From a virus, in IMG/VR virus record IMGVR_UViG_3300043395_000260, positions 1 to 24,159 of that record: a stretch of 24,159 nucleotides of DNA. One strand, 5' to 3'. Under the pieces are notes generated by a model. It saw only the letters and a list, made by a program, of their open reading frames with translations. It was not told the DNA's origin and searched no databases. Shown here one piece after another: positions 9,594 to 23,673 of the stretch. Positions within the stretch are counted from its first letter, which is position 1. Each line of letters begins with the position of its first letter. The position numbers and the translations under genes are program-made.

Positions 9594-10106
9594 ATGACAG
9601 CTATCAATAGAAGTCCTGAAAATACCAATTTTTTACAACCAACAAAATTCTTGTTGACATTCGATAGAATTCGCACGACACAATATTTTTGTCAAAGTGT
9701 TAATCTTCCAGGCATCAGTTTGGGTGAAGTGAATAGAGCCACTCCATTCTTAGACATGTATTCACCTGGAACAAAACTATCGTATGATCCGTTAGATGTA
9801 GAATTCATTTTGGATGAAAAACTTCAAGGTTGGAAAAACATATACGATTGGTTCTTAACCATGGCAGACCCCGATGGTTTCGAAAAGCGTGACGGCAGCA
9901 AAGAACTGCAAACAAACAAACATTTCTCTGATGCCACTTTAACCATTCTAAGTGGTTTAAACAATCCGTTGGTGAGAATACAATATAAAAATTTATTCCC
10001 ATTAACTCTTGGTGAAATCAGATTTGATTCAACACAATCTGCCGATACCATTATTACAGTCAGAGCAACATTCAGGTATCAATCATACGAATACTTGACA
10101 ACTTAA
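9594..10106 (+). CDS. Second gp19-like tail-tube-fold structural protein
   Basis: A 170-residue protein with the tail-tube family pattern, comparable by eye with gp19 of this window. Shared features are KFLLTFDRI, SVNLPGISLGEV, FILDEKLQGWKNIYDWFLTMADPD, a Phe-Pro-Leu-x-Leu strand (LFPLTLGEIRFD) and a terminal ATFRYQSYEY strand. It is therefore likely to be a tube-related part of the tail or baseplate, such as a tube-end or tube-initiation protein. In related phages the gene after 23 is sometimes annotated gp3 (tail completion), but identity to T4 gp3 cannot be shown here. It is flanked by the gp23 terminator and the uvsY promoter, so it is its own unit. AGGAG precedes the ATG. Confidence 0.72.
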   Translation: MTAINRSPENTNFLQPTKFLLTFDRIRTTQYFCQSVNLPGISLGEVNRATPFLDMYSPGTKLSYDPLDVEFILDEKLQGWKNIYDWFLTMADPDGFEKRDGSKELQTNKHFSDATLTILSGLNNPLVRIQYKNLFPLTLGEIRFDSTQSADTIITVRATFRYQSYEYLTT

Positions 10107-13793: not shown

Positions 13794-14838
13794 CCAACAC
13801 TTTGGTGCTCGTAACGATTCACCATTGTTTTTGGATTTTTTTGAGAAGTTCTATAAAGAAATTTTCTTTCCAACATTAGAAAAGGAAAAGATTGATACGG
13901 TTTTAATCTTAGGTGACACCTTTGACCGTAGAAAATATGTGAATTTCTTTTCACTGAAACGAGCCAAAGAAATGTTTTTTGATCCTTTGACTAACAGAGG
14001 TATTCAAGTTCATATGTTGGCAGGAAACCATGATACTTATTTTAAAAATACTAATGATGTGAACTCTGCTGACTTATTGTTGGGTGAATATGGTATGAGT
14101 ATCAATGTTATTGACCACCCAGCACACATATATGTTGGTCCACATAAAATTTGTATGATGCCTTGGATTTGTCCAGAGAATTATGATGATTCGATGGAAA
14201 CCTTAAAAGATTCTGATGCAAAATATTGCATGGGTCATTTTGAGATTGCCGGTTTTGCCATGCACCGAGGTATGCCTTCTGAAGGCGGACTTGACCGTTC
14301 AGTATTCAATAAGTTTAGTCACACATTCAGTGGTCATTACCACCACAGGTCCACAAACGATGACATTTATTATGTTGGTAATCCATATGAAATGACTTGG
14401 CAAGATTATGATGATCCAAGAGGATTCCACATATTCGATTTGGATTCACAACAACTAGATTTCATACCAAATACAAACCGAATGTTTTTCAGAATCACAT
14501 ATGATGATAAAGAACAAACAATTAAAGAAATTGATGGTATGGATTTGAAACCTTATACAAATACCTATGTTAAAGTGGTTGTAATAAACAAAACCAACCC
14601 GTATTTGTTTGACAAATTTATGAATAACCTGTATAATGTTAATCCTGCGGATATTACTATCGTAGAAGATTTCACCGATTCGGTTGATGATGATACTTTG
14701 GTCGATGAAGCCGAAGATACAATCACCATATTAAACAAGTATGTTGATGGCATTACCGAAGAAAGTATTGATAACGAAAAGTTAAAATCAATTTTGAAAG
14801 AACTTTATATTGAAGCGTTGAACACTGAACAAGCATGA
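13771..14838 (+). CDS. 47: Recombination endonuclease subunit gp47 (Mre11-type)
   Basis: Nuclease subunit of the gp46/gp47 complex (Mre11-Rad50 relatives), which degrades host DNA and resects ends for recombination-dependent replication. The calcineurin-like metallophosphoesterase motifs are all present: D8-x-H10 (TDQH), GDTFDRR (48-54), GNHD (85-88), GHFEIAGF and SGHYHHRS. The product is 355 residues from ATG 13771, against 339 in T4. That ATG gives the family start MKVAIITDQHFG. An upstream in-frame TTG adds eight residues without family support. It overlaps the previous gene by 23 bases and gp46 by 4 (ATGA). Secure. Confidence 0.94.
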   Translation: MKVAIITDQHFGARNDSPLFLDFFEKFYKEIFFPTLEKEKIDTVLILGDTFDRRKYVNFFSLKRAKEMFFDPLTNRGIQVHMLAGNHDTYFKNTNDVNSADLLLGEYGMSINVIDHPAHIYVGPHKICMMPWICPENYDDSMETLKDSDAKYCMGHFEIAGFAMHRGMPSEGGLDRSVFNKFSHTFSGHYHHRSTNDDIYYVGNPYEMTWQDYDDPRGFHIFDLDSQQLDFIPNTNRMFFRITYDDKEQTIKEIDGMDLKPYTNTYVKVVVINKTNPYLFDKFMNNLYNVNPADITIVEDFTDSVDDDTLVDEAEDTITILNKYVDGITEESIDNEKLKSILKELYIEALNTEQA

Positions 14839-16553: not shown

Positions 16554-17146
16554 ATACAGAAGATATTGTTTTATACAACACACAAGAACAGGTTAAAGTT
16601 CAACCAACCGCAACACCGGTTGAAACATTTGATTTGGTTCCACCAGACCATCCTGCACTATACAAAGTTTTACCAGAATTTGATTTTGCAAATGCACCAA
16701 TCAATCCAAATAGTTTTGCATCTACATTGGTAGAAACATGCAGGAAACATAATGGTATCGGATTGTCCGCCAATCAATGTGGTTTCGAATACCGTGTTTT
16801 TGTTATGGGTGCCGGTGAAGAATATGTGGCATACTTTAATCCAAAAATCATTTCATCAAGTGGTGAAAAACACATGGAAGAAGGTTGTCTTTCATTCCCT
16901 TTCCTAAATCTTCACATCACCAGACCAGAAACCGTAGAAATTGAATATCAAGACTATAACGGACAAACACATACCAAAACTTTTAATGGTATATCTGCTC
17001 GTTGTTTCCTACATGAGCTTGACCACATGAACGGAATAGTGTATACTAGTCGTGTAAAACCTCTTGCATTGCAATTTGGTTTAAAGAAATTAGATAAAAT
17101 TAGACGCAAGTTTTTCACTGCACCGAAAAAATCGAAAAGAAAATAA
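16550..17146 (+). CDS. def: Peptide deformylase
   Basis: Metalloenzyme removing the formyl group from N-terminal methionine of new proteins. The three diagnostic motifs are intact: GIGLSANQ (69-76), EGCLS (111-115) and HELDH (155-159), which supply the Cys and two His metal ligands and the catalytic Glu. It is therefore likely to be active. There is an N-terminal extension of about 40 residues and a very basic C-terminal tail ending APKKSKRK. Phage deformylases are known from cyanophages and Vibrio phages, where they are usually shorter than bacterial ones. It starts in an ATGA overlap with gp46, with AAGGA upstream, and ends in a one-base overlap with the next gene. Probably an auxiliary gene sustaining phage protein maturation. 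Confidence 0.93.
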   Translation: MNTEDIVLYNTQEQVKVQPTATPVETFDLVPPDHPALYKVLPEFDFANAPINPNSFASTLVETCRKHNGIGLSANQCGFEYRVFVMGAGEEYVAYFNPKIISSSGEKHMEEGCLSFPFLNLHITRPETVEIEYQDYNGQTHTKTFNGISARCFLHELDHMNGIVYTSRVKPLALQFGLKKLDKIRRKFFTAPKKSKRK

Positions 17147-18411
17147 TGGCTACACCTACCGAATTTGTTGATGCTCAATGGGATAAATGGCAGAATCTTA
17201 ATGATCCTGAACGTTTTGAACATATTGATACCGAGGAACTTAAAGATGTTCTCATTAAGGACCTCAGGTATGCATCGCAAATGGATGTGAGAGAATATAC
17301 TCTTTATCAAAAATGGTTAGAGGTGCATGAAAAATATCCAACACGAACAATCACCACATTGTTTGGTGATGAACAACAGTTGGTGGATGTTACTCAAAAA
17401 AATTTGGTAGAAAAAGTTAAGAAAAATTTCTGGATGCCAGAAGGTCCAGATGACTATGAAAAACTAAAACCAAAATTGGTATTGTCTAATGGTCCTTTGG
17501 CTGAAACTTGGAATACCATACGAACATTCTCGTCTACGATGAAGAACAATTCCAATATTGGTCGAAATCTATATTACACCGTGGTAGATGAAGTGACGGA
17601 AAAATATCTTGGTGTGATGTGTATTTCTTCTGACTTTTTGGATTTGACACCTAGAGATACTGCAATTGGTTGGCCTAGAGATGTTAAGACACAACAAGGT
17701 ATGATTAACCATACCGCAATCGGTTCTACAATCGTTCCATTACAACCACTTGGTTTTAATTATATGGGTGGTAAACTACTTGCCCTTTTGTGTCTGGCTG
17801 ACACTGTTCAAAAAGATTGGAAAAGACAATATGGTGACGTTCTTGTTGGAGTTACTACTACTAGCCTTTATGGTAATACTAAGTCCAATGGTCTATCTCA
17901 GTATGATGGTCTTGAACATTGGAACAAAATGGGTTTCTCTAGTGGTTCGGTTGCTTTTGAACCGTCCAGAAAAACTAGAACGATGATTTATAATTGGGTG
18001 AAAGAGAATCACACCCGCAAATATTTCGAATGGTGGGAAGCCAAAAATCAAAAAGGTTTACCACTCAAGCGTGACCATAAGAATAGAACACTGAATTTTG
18101 CTTATGGTAAATTGGGTATTCCAAAAGAACTTATCCGCACCGAACATCAGAGAGGCATCTACTTTTCACCTCTCTATAACAACACCAATGAATATCTTAG
18201 GAAAGAAATTGGTGATGAACAACTGGTAAAATCATTTGATACCAGTGAAGAAACCTTGACGCAAATTTGGAAAACCAAATATGCCAAAGGTCGTATATCA
18301 ATGTTGAAGAAAAAGAATAATGTATCTTATGAATCATTGTTCTATGATGACTTGATATACCTGTCTTGGGAAGAAACCAAGGCAAAGTATTTGCCACAAG
18401 TAGGAAGATAA
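17146..18411 (+). CDS. DUF4338/DruA-like protein
   Basis: A 421-residue soluble protein. The central part has the pattern I associate with DUF4338, the family of the DruA component of the Druantia anti-phage system. It reads YLGVMCISSDFLDLTPRD, IGW, a Pro-containing LQPLGFNYMGGKLLALLCL, DTVQKDWKRQYGDVLVGVTT, then SLYGNTKSNGLSQYDGLEHW and NKMGFSSG. The flanking N-terminal (about 120 residues) and C-terminal parts are phage-specific and polar. It sits in the operon between deformylase and a small zinc protein with one-base spacing, so it is a stable phage gene rather than a recent insertion; base use matches neighbours. No role can be stated. The family link was made by eye and needs a profile search (PF14236). 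Confidence 0.6.
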   Translation: MATPTEFVDAQWDKWQNLNDPERFEHIDTEELKDVLIKDLRYASQMDVREYTLYQKWLEVHEKYPTRTITTLFGDEQQLVDVTQKNLVEKVKKNFWMPEGPDDYEKLKPKLVLSNGPLAETWNTIRTFSSTMKNNSNIGRNLYYTVVDEVTEKYLGVMCISSDFLDLTPRDTAIGWPRDVKTQQGMINHTAIGSTIVPLQPLGFNYMGGKLLALLCLADTVQKDWKRQYGDVLVGVTTTSLYGNTKSNGLSQYDGLEHWNKMGFSSGSVAFEPSRKTRTMIYNWVKENHTRKYFEWWEAKNQKGLPLKRDHKNRTLNFAYGKLGIPKELIRTEHQRGIYFSPLYNNTNEYLRKEIGDEQLVKSFDTSEETLTQIWKTKYAKGRISMLKKKNNVSYESLFYDDLIYLSWEETKAKYLPQVGR

Positions 18412-18412
18412 A

Positions 18413-18616
18413 ATGATACAAACATTTGTTATTTGTCCAAAACATGGAAAACATGAACATAGTATTGTGAGCCGTATTGAAGGACATGAAGGTGTTTGGT
18501 GTCAGATTTGCTGGTTGGAATCTTTAGGACCAACAATGCCTTCCGAGCAAGTGCCGTTTGAATTAAAATTAGACAACGATGTGGCAGATAAAAAAGTATA
18601 CCGCAAATATACTTGA
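18413..18616 (+). CDS. Small zinc-ribbon-like protein
   Basis: A 67-residue protein with paired metal-ligand-type residues: C8-P-K-H11 near the N-terminus and C30-Q-I-C33 within GVWCQICWLESLG. This suggests a treble-clef or zinc-ribbon knuckle pair. The tail after residue 40 is acidic and disordered-looking. AGGA precedes the ATG, which lies one base after the preceding stop. The -35 box of the next transcription unit begins in its last codons. Similar CPxHG...WCxxCW small proteins are common unknowns in T4-like phages. Function is unknown; DNA or protein binding is possible. Confidence 0.65.
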   Translation: MIQTFVICPKHGKHEHSIVSRIEGHEGVWCQICWLESLGPTMPSEQVPFELKLDNDVADKKVYRKYT

Positions 18617-18641
18617 CACACACACTAAGTAATAGTATAAT
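18613..18641 (+). promoter_or_regulatory. Perfect sigma70 promoter of the HTH-type gene
   Basis: TTGACA (18613-18618), exactly 17 bases, TATAAT (18636-18641). It overlaps the stop codon of the zinc-ribbon gene. Predicted transcription start is near 18648, right at a hairpin. Confidence 0.93.
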
Positions 18642-18648
18642 GCATATA

Positions 18649-18663
18649 CTTGCGAAATGCAAG
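18649..18663 (+). promoter_or_regulatory. 5'-terminal mRNA hairpin
   Basis: CTTGC (18649-18653), loop GAAAT, GCAAG (18659-18663) forms a hairpin at the predicted 5' end of the transcript, followed by a T/A-rich stretch and the AGGAG site at 18685-18689. A 5' stem followed by unpaired U-rich sequence is a typical mRNA-stabilising arrangement. It could also act as an early pause or weak terminator. Confidence 0.5.
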
Positions 18664-18696
18664 ATTTTATTTTTATTTTATCATAGGAGTTTTGAT

Positions 18697-18969
18697 ATGA
18701 CAAAGCATATTTCCGCCAAGCAGAAGATGATTAACTATTTGAGCAAGACTGAGGGTTACAATACCTTCTCTGTGGCCCAAGGCCGCAAGTTGTTCGGAGT
18801 TCAGAACGTTTCTGCACGTATTGATGAGTTGCGCCAAGAAGGCCACTGCATCTACACCAACAGCGTTACCAAAGGTGACGGCAGCAAGACAAACGTATAT
18901 CGTTTGGGCACACCAACCAAAGCAATGGTTCGTGCTGCACTAAAAGCAGGTTACAGCTTCACCGCTTAA
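18697..18969 (+). CDS. Small helix-turn-helix-type DNA-binding protein, probably highly expressed
   Basis: A 90-residue basic protein. Residues 1-62 (TKHISAKQKMINYLSKTEG, FSVAQGRKLFGVQNVSARIDELRQEG) have the pattern of a winged helix-turn-helix. The recognition-type helix VQNVSARIDELRQEG is followed by a CIYTNSVTKGDGSKTNVYRLG wing. The start ATG 18697 is chosen because AGGAG lies 7 bases upstream; a longer reading frame from 18613 begins inside the promoter and is not real. Codon use is richer in C-ending and major codons than in neighbouring enzymes, similar to the capsid gene. With its own consensus promoter, 5' hairpin and terminator it looks like an early, abundant protein, perhaps a transcription regulator or chromatin-like binder. 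Target unknown. Confidence 0.75.
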   Translation: MTKHISAKQKMINYLSKTEGYNTFSVAQGRKLFGVQNVSARIDELRQEGHCIYTNSVTKGDGSKTNVYRLGTPTKAMVRAALKAGYSFTA

Positions 18970-18982
18970 TTAACCCAAATAC

Positions 18983-19015
18983 TAGGGATCCAACCGGATC
19001 CCTATTTTTGTTTTT
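18983..19015 (+). terminator. Rho-independent terminator after the HTH-type gene
   Basis: A perfect 9-bp stem TAGGGATCC (18983-18991) / GGATCCCTA (18996-19004) with loop AACC is followed by TTTTTGTTTTT. It closes the single-gene unit. Confidence 0.93.
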
Positions 19016-19024
19016 GGAGAGAAA

Positions 19025-19843
19025 ATGGAAATTTCAATTAAAAAAGAAGAACTACAAAAGAAAAGTCTTTTCGTTGCGACACCAATGTATGGCGGCATGA
19101 ACCACGGTCTTTATGCCAAAGCTTGTCTTGATTTACAAGCACTCTGTATGCAATATGGTGTAACAGTGAAATTTTCATTTCTTTTCAATGAATCTTTAAT
19201 TACAAGAGCTCGTAACTATTTGGTTGACGAGTTTCTTAATCGTTCCGATTGCACACATATGTTGTTCATTGATTCGGACATTCACTTCAATCCACAGGAT
19301 GTTATTGCATTGTTGGCACTTGATAAAGATGTTATCGGTGGACCATATCCCAAGAAAGCAATCAAGTGGTCTTCAGTTAAAAAGGCCATGGAAAAAAATC
19401 CTGCAATTACACCACAAGACTTGGAAAAAGTAACAGGTGATTATGTTTTCAATCCAGTAAGAGGTACAGATAAGTTCAGTGTTGCTGAACCACTTGAAGT
19501 GTTGGAGATTGGAACAGGTTTCATGTTAATCAATCGTAAAGTATTTAAGAAGATGGAAGAAGCTTATCCACAACTTAGATATAAACCTGACCATGTTGGC
19601 CAAGCCCACTTTGATGGCTCACGTTACATTCATGCATACTTTGATACAATCATTGATACTAAAGATAGTGCAACAGGTGGTGGTTCTGACCGTTACTTGT
19701 CTGAGGACTATATGTTCTGTCAATTGTGGCGCAAAACTGGTGGCCAGATTTGGTTGTGTCCATGGATGAGAGCTGACCACATCGGCACATATCATTTCCG
19801 TGGTGACATGCCAGCAGTAGCAAATTTTGTCGGAGAAATGTAA
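19025..19843 (+). CDS. GT-A-type glycosyltransferase
   Basis: A 272-residue soluble enzyme with features of the GT-A glycosyltransferase fold. There is an N-terminal strand SLFVATPMYGGMNHG, a helix with ITRARNYLVDEFL, and the metal/nucleotide-sugar DxD motif HMLFIDSDIHFNP (D83, D85). This is followed by DVIGGPYPKK and a C-terminal EDYMFCQLWRKTGGQIWLCP with an acidic residue often acting in acceptor or base roles. Such enzymes in T4-like phages may glycosylate DNA, virion proteins or host surface sugars. GGAGAG lies before the ATG, directly after the preceding terminator. No promoter is evident, so expression may rely on read-through. It overlaps the kinase gene by one base. Donor and acceptor are unknown. 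Confidence 0.82.
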   Translation: MEISIKKEELQKKSLFVATPMYGGMNHGLYAKACLDLQALCMQYGVTVKFSFLFNESLITRARNYLVDEFLNRSDCTHMLFIDSDIHFNPQDVIALLALDKDVIGGPYPKKAIKWSSVKKAMEKNPAITPQDLEKVTGDYVFNPVRGTDKFSVAEPLEVLEIGTGFMLINRKVFKKMEEAYPQLRYKPDHVGQAHFDGSRYIHAYFDTIIDTKDSATGGGSDRYLSEDYMFCQLWRKTGGQIWLCPWMRADHIGTYHFRGDMPAVANFVGEM

Positions 19844-23136: not shown

Positions 23137-23530
23137 AGATTTGGTTGAAGTGACCTTAAATGATAAAGATGATTTTCTAAAAGTTAGAGAAACACTTACA
23201 CGCATTGGAGTGGCTTCCAAAAAGGATCAGGTTTTATACCAATCCTGCCACATATTACATAAGCGTGGACAATACTATGTTGTCCATTTTAAAGAATTGT
23301 TTGCCCTAGATGGTAAACCAACAGATATTACCGAGAATGATTTGTCTCGTAGAAATGCGATTGCAAATCTATTGGAAGATTGGGGACTAGTAAAAATTGT
23401 GAACAAGAAACAAACAGAGGTTCCACCTCCTATTTTCCTTTCACAAATTAAGATTCTATCCCATAAAGAAAAGAATGATTGGCAACTGACACCAAAGTAT
23501 AATATTGGTAAAAAACCAAATAGTGTTTGA
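23123..23530 (+). CDS. regA: RegA translational repressor
   Basis: RNA-binding protein that silences early phage mRNAs by binding around their start codons. At 135 residues versus 122 in T4, it is strongly conserved: DDFLKVRETLTRIGVASKKD, VLYQSCHILHKRGQYYVVHF, RRNAIANLLEDWGLVKIV and WQLTPKYNIGKKP all align with T4. The first seven residues (MIDVKDL) are an N-terminal extension relative to T4. GGAG lies upstream inside gp62. In T4 RegA represses 44, 45 and itself, and the same operon arrangement here suggests the same feedback. Secure. Confidence 0.95.
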   Translation: MIDVKDLVEVTLNDKDDFLKVRETLTRIGVASKKDQVLYQSCHILHKRGQYYVVHFKELFALDGKPTDITENDLSRRNAIANLLEDWGLVKIVNKKQTEVPPPIFLSQIKILSHKEKNDWQLTPKYNIGKKPNSV

Positions 23531-23555
23531 CTAAGTTGTATAAATAAAATATAAT
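23527..23555 (+). promoter_or_regulatory. Sigma70 promoter of hsp20, overlapping a late promoter
   Basis: TTGACT (23527-23532, over the regA stop), a 17-base spacer and TATAAT (23550-23555). Five of six -35 bases and all -10 bases match consensus. The late octamer lies inside its spacer. Predicted start near 23562 gives a leader of about 112 bases. Confidence 0.75.
23539..23546 (+). promoter_or_regulatory. Late promoter TATAAATA of hsp20
   Basis: A perfect late octamer within the spacer of the sigma70 promoter, giving a predicted transcript start near 23553. Binding of the two polymerase forms would be mutually exclusive. Confidence 0.72.
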
Positions 23556-23563
23556 AGTCTCAG

Positions 23564-23667
23564 TCCCATCGGGATGGGAACTACCATGCCGTTGAAGGGT
23601 AGTAAAATATCCAGCGGTGCCGATGCCTTCGGGGTCGGCAATTTTATTAACTCGCTTAAATAAGGAG
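23564..23667 (+). promoter_or_regulatory. Structured hsp20 5' leader, candidate ROSE-like RNA thermometer
   Basis: Four hairpins in series. I: TCCCAT (23564-23569) / ATGGGA (23574-23579), loop CGGG. II: ACTACC (23580-23585) / GGTAGT (23598-23603), 12-base loop. III: TGCCGA / TCGGCA (23618-23640) with inner CC-UUCG-GG and one bulged G. IV: CTC-g-CTT (23651-23657) pairs with AAGGAG (23662-23667) over an AAAT loop, hiding the Shine-Dalgarno of hsp20 with a bulged G. Bases 23652-23656 read UCGCU, matching the UYGCU anti-Shine-Dalgarno core of ROSE thermometers that control bacterial small heat-shock genes. The fold is drawn by hand. Hairpin III followed by ATTTTATT could alternatively act as a terminator or attenuator. 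Confidence 0.55.
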
Positions 23668-23673
23668 AAACCT

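Follow-up and report, generated by a model that had tools for sequence, protein, structure and literature searches.

The leader RNA of T4 gene 32 carries a pseudoknot that acts as an autogenous translational operator, with an A/U-rich stretch before the ribosome-binding site (PMC3014915). Stem-loops at the 5' terminus stabilize the ompA and papA messages, where the helix lies at or next to the 5' end and its position outweighs its sequence; RppH and RNase E depend on 5' ends that are single-stranded, and mRNA is stabilized by secondary structure at the 5' end (PMC3997798). MotB of T4 is an early DNA-binding protein that is thought to act on both host and phage DNA (PMC6070864). Knowledge of the T4-like phages that infect abundant aquatic bacteria comes mostly from sequence, and the means by which these phages take over their hosts are largely obscure.

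The window, by which we mean the whole 24,159-base stretch analyzed here, is a virus record from a T4-like phage. It holds a transcription unit for a 90-amino-acid winged helix-turn-helix (wHTH) protein, and the layout of promoter, leader structure, wHTH ORF, and stop signal is retained in well over a hundred related virus sequences. The most informative feature of this unit is a covarying 5' structure that takes the form of a pseudoknot in a divergent clade; the original prediction had only "a hairpin." The reading we favor, with a probability of roughly 0.55, is that of a monocistronic early gene of T4-like phages tuned for high output of the wHTH protein, with a putative 5'-protected mRNA and an abundant early DNA-binding product. 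The unit draws attention to a short and widely kept early protein, apparently expressed at a high level, that deserves to be tested first, and the gradation from pseudoknot to hairpin that nature offers at this one gene could reveal what these phages need at the 5' end of an early message.

The Window and Its Relatives

The window contains a T4-type structural block, gp47/gp46, a peptide deformylase gene, a DruA-domain gene, the wHTH unit, and gp45-gp44-gp62. By capsid protein, the closest isolate is Methylophilales phage Melnitz, which infects OM43 bacteria (64.9%). The DruA-domain gene (17146-18411; PF14236, 2.9e-20) carries a domain as found in the Druantia defense system, and its product is 59% identical to a DUF4338 protein of Pelagibacter phage Mosig. 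Between this gene and the wHTH unit lies a 67-amino-acid ORF (18413-18616) whose stop codon overlaps the -35 box of the wHTH promoter. It encodes two CxxC/CxxH-like cysteine-histidine pairs and has no Pfam match.

Two arrangements of neighbors are found around the wHTH gene. In the window's lineage the DruA gene is upstream and the gene at 19025 downstream (108 loci), and in Melnitz-like phages hsp20 is upstream and gp45 downstream (50 loci), counts in which many loci are fragments or overlapping copies. The relatives are mostly metagenomic fragments, and many of the leaders are related to one another and hence do not represent independent events. A bacterial origin was rejected, as the patterns used confirmed no relative in 84,980 species genomes of bacteria and archaea.

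Promoter and Terminator

The wHTH gene is preceded on the plus strand by a sigma-70 promoter that matches TTGACA-N17-TATAAT at all 12 positions (18613-18641), just as had been described, with the -35 TTGACA at 18613-18618, a 17-nt spacer, and the -10 TATAAT at 18636-18641. Relatives match at 10-12 of the 12 positions, and some promoters in the pseudoknot clade are weaker (8-10/12). The pattern TTGACA-N17-TATRAT occurs at 30 sites in the genomes of four large relatives, all in the coding direction, and a reversed-pattern control gave 0; it is thus probable that these sites are genuine promoters and occur regularly in phages of this kind. The perfect promoter had also been taken as a mark of special investment. 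It is present, but promoters of this kind are too common to single out the wHTH gene. Two other sites in the window also match TTGACA-N17-TATAAT at 12/12, one at 10095 and one at 14609; the latter is within the gp47 gene and upstream of gp46, and has an equivalent in one relative (G001, 75181).

Among wHTH promoters, a TGn extension is found at 24 of 30 TATGAT sites versus only 2 of 16 TATAAT sites, as if promoter strength were held constant by adding TGn where the -10 box is TATGAT. Late-type NATAAATA motifs stand upstream of the sheath, capsid, and other structural genes. This motif is absent at the wHTH gene, which supports assignment of its promoter to an early type.

The unit ends in an intrinsic terminator (18983-19014, plus strand), recognizable from sequence, fold, and relatives. 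It consists of a perfect 9-bp stem closed by a 4-nt loop (TAGGGATCC-AACC-GGATCCCTA, 18983-19004) and a T-rich tail (TTTTTGTTTT), in agreement with the perfect terminator originally reported. None of 200 shuffles was as stable as its fold (-16.3 kcal/mol; z -4.9), and 53 of 79 distinct relatives have a terminator-like site behind the ORF, versus 2.2% of shuffles. At most Melnitz-like loci the hairpin downstream of the ORF is G-rich and lacks a T-run.

All the elements proposed for a complete, strong transcription unit are thus in place. The further claim that the cassette is insulated stands on its 3' side, where the terminator lies, but not on its 5' side, where no clear terminator separates it from the co-oriented upstream genes. 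The gene at 19025 starts 20 nt past the terminator and has no promoter of its own of at least 10/12 between 18613 and 20449. It is therefore likely that the terminator acts to set a dose ratio and does not isolate the unit.

A Structured Leader at the Predicted Transcript Start

The leader hairpin CTTGC-GAAAT-GCAAG (CTTGCGAAATGCAAG) occupies 18649-18663 on the plus strand, at the predicted +1. It is followed by an A/U-rich segment that is unstructured by sequence and fold (18664-18684) and by a Shine-Dalgarno AGGAG (18685-18689) 7 nt before the ATG; both the hairpin and AGGAG had been noticed in the original prediction. By energy alone the hairpin is unremarkable (z -1.5), and the window has no Rfam match to a known RNA family. 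The distance from the -10 box to the start of the hairpin is fixed at about 7 nt in relatives, with the transcript start deduced from the promoter. Among 74 distinct promoter-leader sequences from relatives with a promoter of at least 10/12, all 74 have a hairpin starting 5-8 nt past the -10 box and 61 have it at one offset. When further clades are included, the hairpins of 80 of 113 distinct leaders lie at one exact offset, whereas shuffles give a flat distribution.

The stems at this fixed position differ widely, with CTTGC/GCAAG, CTCGT/ACGAG, CTCAA/TTGAG, CTTTCA/TGAAAG, and CCCACA/TGTGGG all represented. Inner stem pairs in the 113 leaders are 87.5% Watson-Crick versus 29% when arms are swapped between leaders (maximum 46% in 5,000 trials), although the arms were picked as each leader's best hairpin, which makes pairing high by construction. 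The fixed offset together with the variety of stems is the stronger evidence. Because the position is constant while both arms covary, it is the structure and not the sequence that appears to be maintained. Melnitz and many other relatives have simple hairpins; three Melnitz-like leaders (L306, L314, and L326) are longer and contain multiple helices, as in ATTACTATAAATGTAATAGT with AGTC..GACT after it.

Of 28 other perfect promoters in four genomes, most have no hairpin at this offset, and two have 7-8 bp stems nearby. These two, and hsp20, led us to drop the idea that the hairpin is unique to the wHTH promoter. The hsp20 leader (23527-23671 in the window, and L328-L340 in relatives) has a strong promoter and a hairpin near the predicted start (TCCCATCGGGATGGGA). 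At 7 of 14 relatives' hsp20 genes, the -10 box and a late-type TATAAATA are fused, and next comes a hairpin with a near-constant core GRTGCCTYNGGGGYC and a tail ATTAACTCGCTTAA, the same core and tail being found in the window at about 23617-23650. This element has no Rfam match and is possibly a separate conserved leader RNA. Since hsp20 also combines a strong promoter with a near-start hairpin, this feature seems to suit strong early genes generally and not the wHTH protein alone.

A Pseudoknot in the Divergent Clade

In a divergent clade, the leader can form an H-type pseudoknot (L122, L125, L127, L134, L190, L192, L198, L221, L226, L229, L233, L237, and copies). Stem 1 lies near the predicted start, and its loop pairs with a stretch just upstream of the ribosome-binding site. 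The second stem is formed by different sequences in different leaders, including GGTCGCA/TGCGACC, GATTGCA/TGCAATC, GAATCGC/GCGATTC, GACTGC/GCAGTC, and AATCAC/GTGATT. For most of these leaders the pseudoknot score is equaled in 0-2 of 100 shuffles (11 of 100 for L134). At least two pair types occur at 5 of 6 aligned pairs, and equally full pairing arose in 1 of 5,000 swaps. No Rfam match was found in nine loci of this clade. A pseudoknot in the window's own leader was considered and rejected, as it does not rise above shuffles.

Crossing stems have no meaning outside RNA, and this is an argument that the simple hairpin found in the same position is likewise an RNA element. A reading of the hairpin as a DNA dyad for the wHTH protein was abandoned on these grounds. 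G-U pairs, which also bear on the dyad reading, occur in Melnitz-like leaders and are rare in the window's lineage (1 in 74 leaders), so this point rests on the relatives. The hairpin is also flagged by the scan as an intrinsic terminator or attenuator, an assignment that was set aside because the RNA would end within about 15 nt of its start.

The protein tree, built on few columns, rooted at its midpoint, and with forks left open, places the pseudoknot rows as a grade beneath a hairpin clade of 29 rows (support 98/92). This arrangement suggests that the hairpin is the reduced form and that the window's hairpin is probably a remnant of a pseudoknot. A more ambitious proposal would be a new class of phage leader RNA, in which an ancestral H-type pseudoknot was reduced to a 5'-terminal hairpin at the exact transcript start. 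Its predicted role would be that of a sensor or operator controlling how much is made of an early takeover protein, encoded by a conserved early wHTH gene of freshwater and marine T4-like phages. We consider this proposal tentative and rather unlikely.

The Winged Helix-Turn-Helix Protein

The gene (18697-18969, plus strand, with its ATG at 18697) is assigned by profile match, structural model, and relatives to the HTH_39 wHTH proteins. A basic, HTH-like protein of 90 residues had been predicted, and this is what is found: a 90-amino-acid ORF with a net positive charge from its sequence and an HTH_39 (PF14090) profile score of 24.9 bits against a curated cut-off of 21.3. In Pfam and PHROG scans, HTH_39 and phrog_4973 (function unknown) are the only strong matches. 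Structure prediction, proposed earlier as a check, likewise yields a wHTH fold (H7-15, E23-25, H26-33, H38-47, E52-58, E64-70, H75-83; mean pLDDT 84). The predicted model matches other predicted phage wHTH proteins, down to 2e-7. Fold matches in the PDB are weak and generic only, sequence searches of the PDB gave nothing convincing, and a literature search on HTH_39 yielded two papers that each name it once.

Orthologues 35-42% identical to the window protein are annotated as hypothetical proteins in Melnitz (QZI94950.1), Pelagibacter phage HTVC008M (AGE60444.1), and Stenotrophomonas phage DLP_6 (AMQ66079.1). Helix 3, the recognition helix, is nearly invariant among relatives, and the records of all eight large relatives contain exactly one match.

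Codon use had been called capsid-like. This holds for C-ending bias, with NNC making up 13 of 18 two-fold NNY codons in the wHTH gene versus 76 of 95 in gp23 and 22-55% in other genes. It does not hold for the codon adaptation index against gp23, which at 0.435 is average and was therefore discarded as a demonstration of high expression. Across 86 relatives, NNC has a share of 0.58 in the wHTH gene versus 0.33 in the next gene, supporting the view that signs of high expression are conserved. Third-position G+C in the wHTH gene is 0.54 versus 0.22-0.38 in the other genes measured, with a mean of 0.38 in relatives; it includes G-ending Lys, Gln, and Glu codons, which the capsid gene does not prefer.

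Weighing the Explanations

Unit anatomy, conservation, covarying structure, predicted wHTH fold, and synteny are all observed here, and the steps that would connect them in the favored reading are as follows. At the onset of infection, the host's sigma-70 RNA polymerase would transcribe the wHTH gene from its consensus promoter. The hairpin would then hide the 5' end of the message from 5'-end-dependent decay of the RppH/RNase E type, and a good Shine-Dalgarno sequence with C-ending codons would make translation efficient. The terminator would halt most transcription, leaving a lower dose for the gene at 19025, the dNMP kinase, and gp45 behind it. Fold, charge, and expression signs suggest that the product is made early and in abundance and probably binds the DNA of the host, the phage, or both, possibly as the takeover regulator or nucleoid-like protein originally envisaged. 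A helix that is fixed in position and free in sequence fits masking of the 5' end and not a sequence-reading protein, which favors a stabilized, highly expressed early message. The pseudoknot-clade leader is more elaborate than end protection needs, which counts against this explanation.

A rival explanation is control at the RNA level, in which the hairpin or pseudoknot would be an operator bound by the wHTH protein or another factor to limit translation. The covarying pseudoknot lies just upstream of the ribosome-binding site, gene 32 provides the precedent (PMC3014915), and leader structures are kept in Melnitz-like phages with a protein only ~35% identical. Yet the sequences of stem and loop are free to change although the protein shows good conservation, the window's own leader shows no pseudoknot above shuffles, hsp20 leaders are structured as well, and RNA binding by a wHTH protein would be unusual. 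Such self-control is conceivable chiefly for the pseudoknot clade and overall seems unlikely to us.

The nearly invariant recognition helix would suit a sequence-specific, MotA-like regulator of later phage promoters, made early from its own promoter. A single wHTH domain, one copy per phage, and a location adjoining the clamp block fit this role, and middle promoters reportedly could not be identified in Melnitz, where divergent versions may be in use (PMC9004378). Length and model give no second domain of the MotA type, and we find this possibility quite doubtful. A DNA autorepressor with its operator in the promoter spacer is highly improbable. Some relatives have long spacer dyads, TTAGTATTA-N10-TAATACTAA in L064 and GTTGTAAG-N13-CTTACAAC in L071, and mean arm length is 5.27 versus 4.87 with right parts swapped, but swapping reproduces most of the excess. 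The dyad center shifts and the sequences differ widely while helix 3 is constant, and the window's dyad is of 4 bp only; the spacer dyad was accordingly rejected as an operator.

Comparison with Known Systems

Melnitz resembles the window at this locus: its promoter matches at 11/12 positions, a hairpin stands at the predicted start, and another hairpin lies downstream. As in the window, its wHTH orthologue lies near gp45 and the clamp loader (the gp45-gp44-gp62 clamp block), and the same is true of HTVC008M. Unlike the window, Melnitz has hsp20 and not a DruA gene upstream of the wHTH gene, and HTVC008M and DLP_6 differ in that the promoter-hairpin layout is missing from the stretch read.

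MotA has a second, double-wing domain besides its wHTH domain, whereas the window protein is a single 90-amino-acid wHTH domain with a C-terminal helix. MotB serves as a model for the proposed role only. The likeness to T4 gene 32 lies in the structured leader RNA of an early T4-type gene with an A/U-rich stretch, and in the pseudoknot of the divergent clade. The protein is different, however, the window has a hairpin only, and the structure is at the predicted transcript start. In the manner of ompA and papA, the wHTH leader keeps a helix at or near the predicted 5' end whose position is conserved over its sequence, here in a phage gene whose message would be stabilized in the same way.
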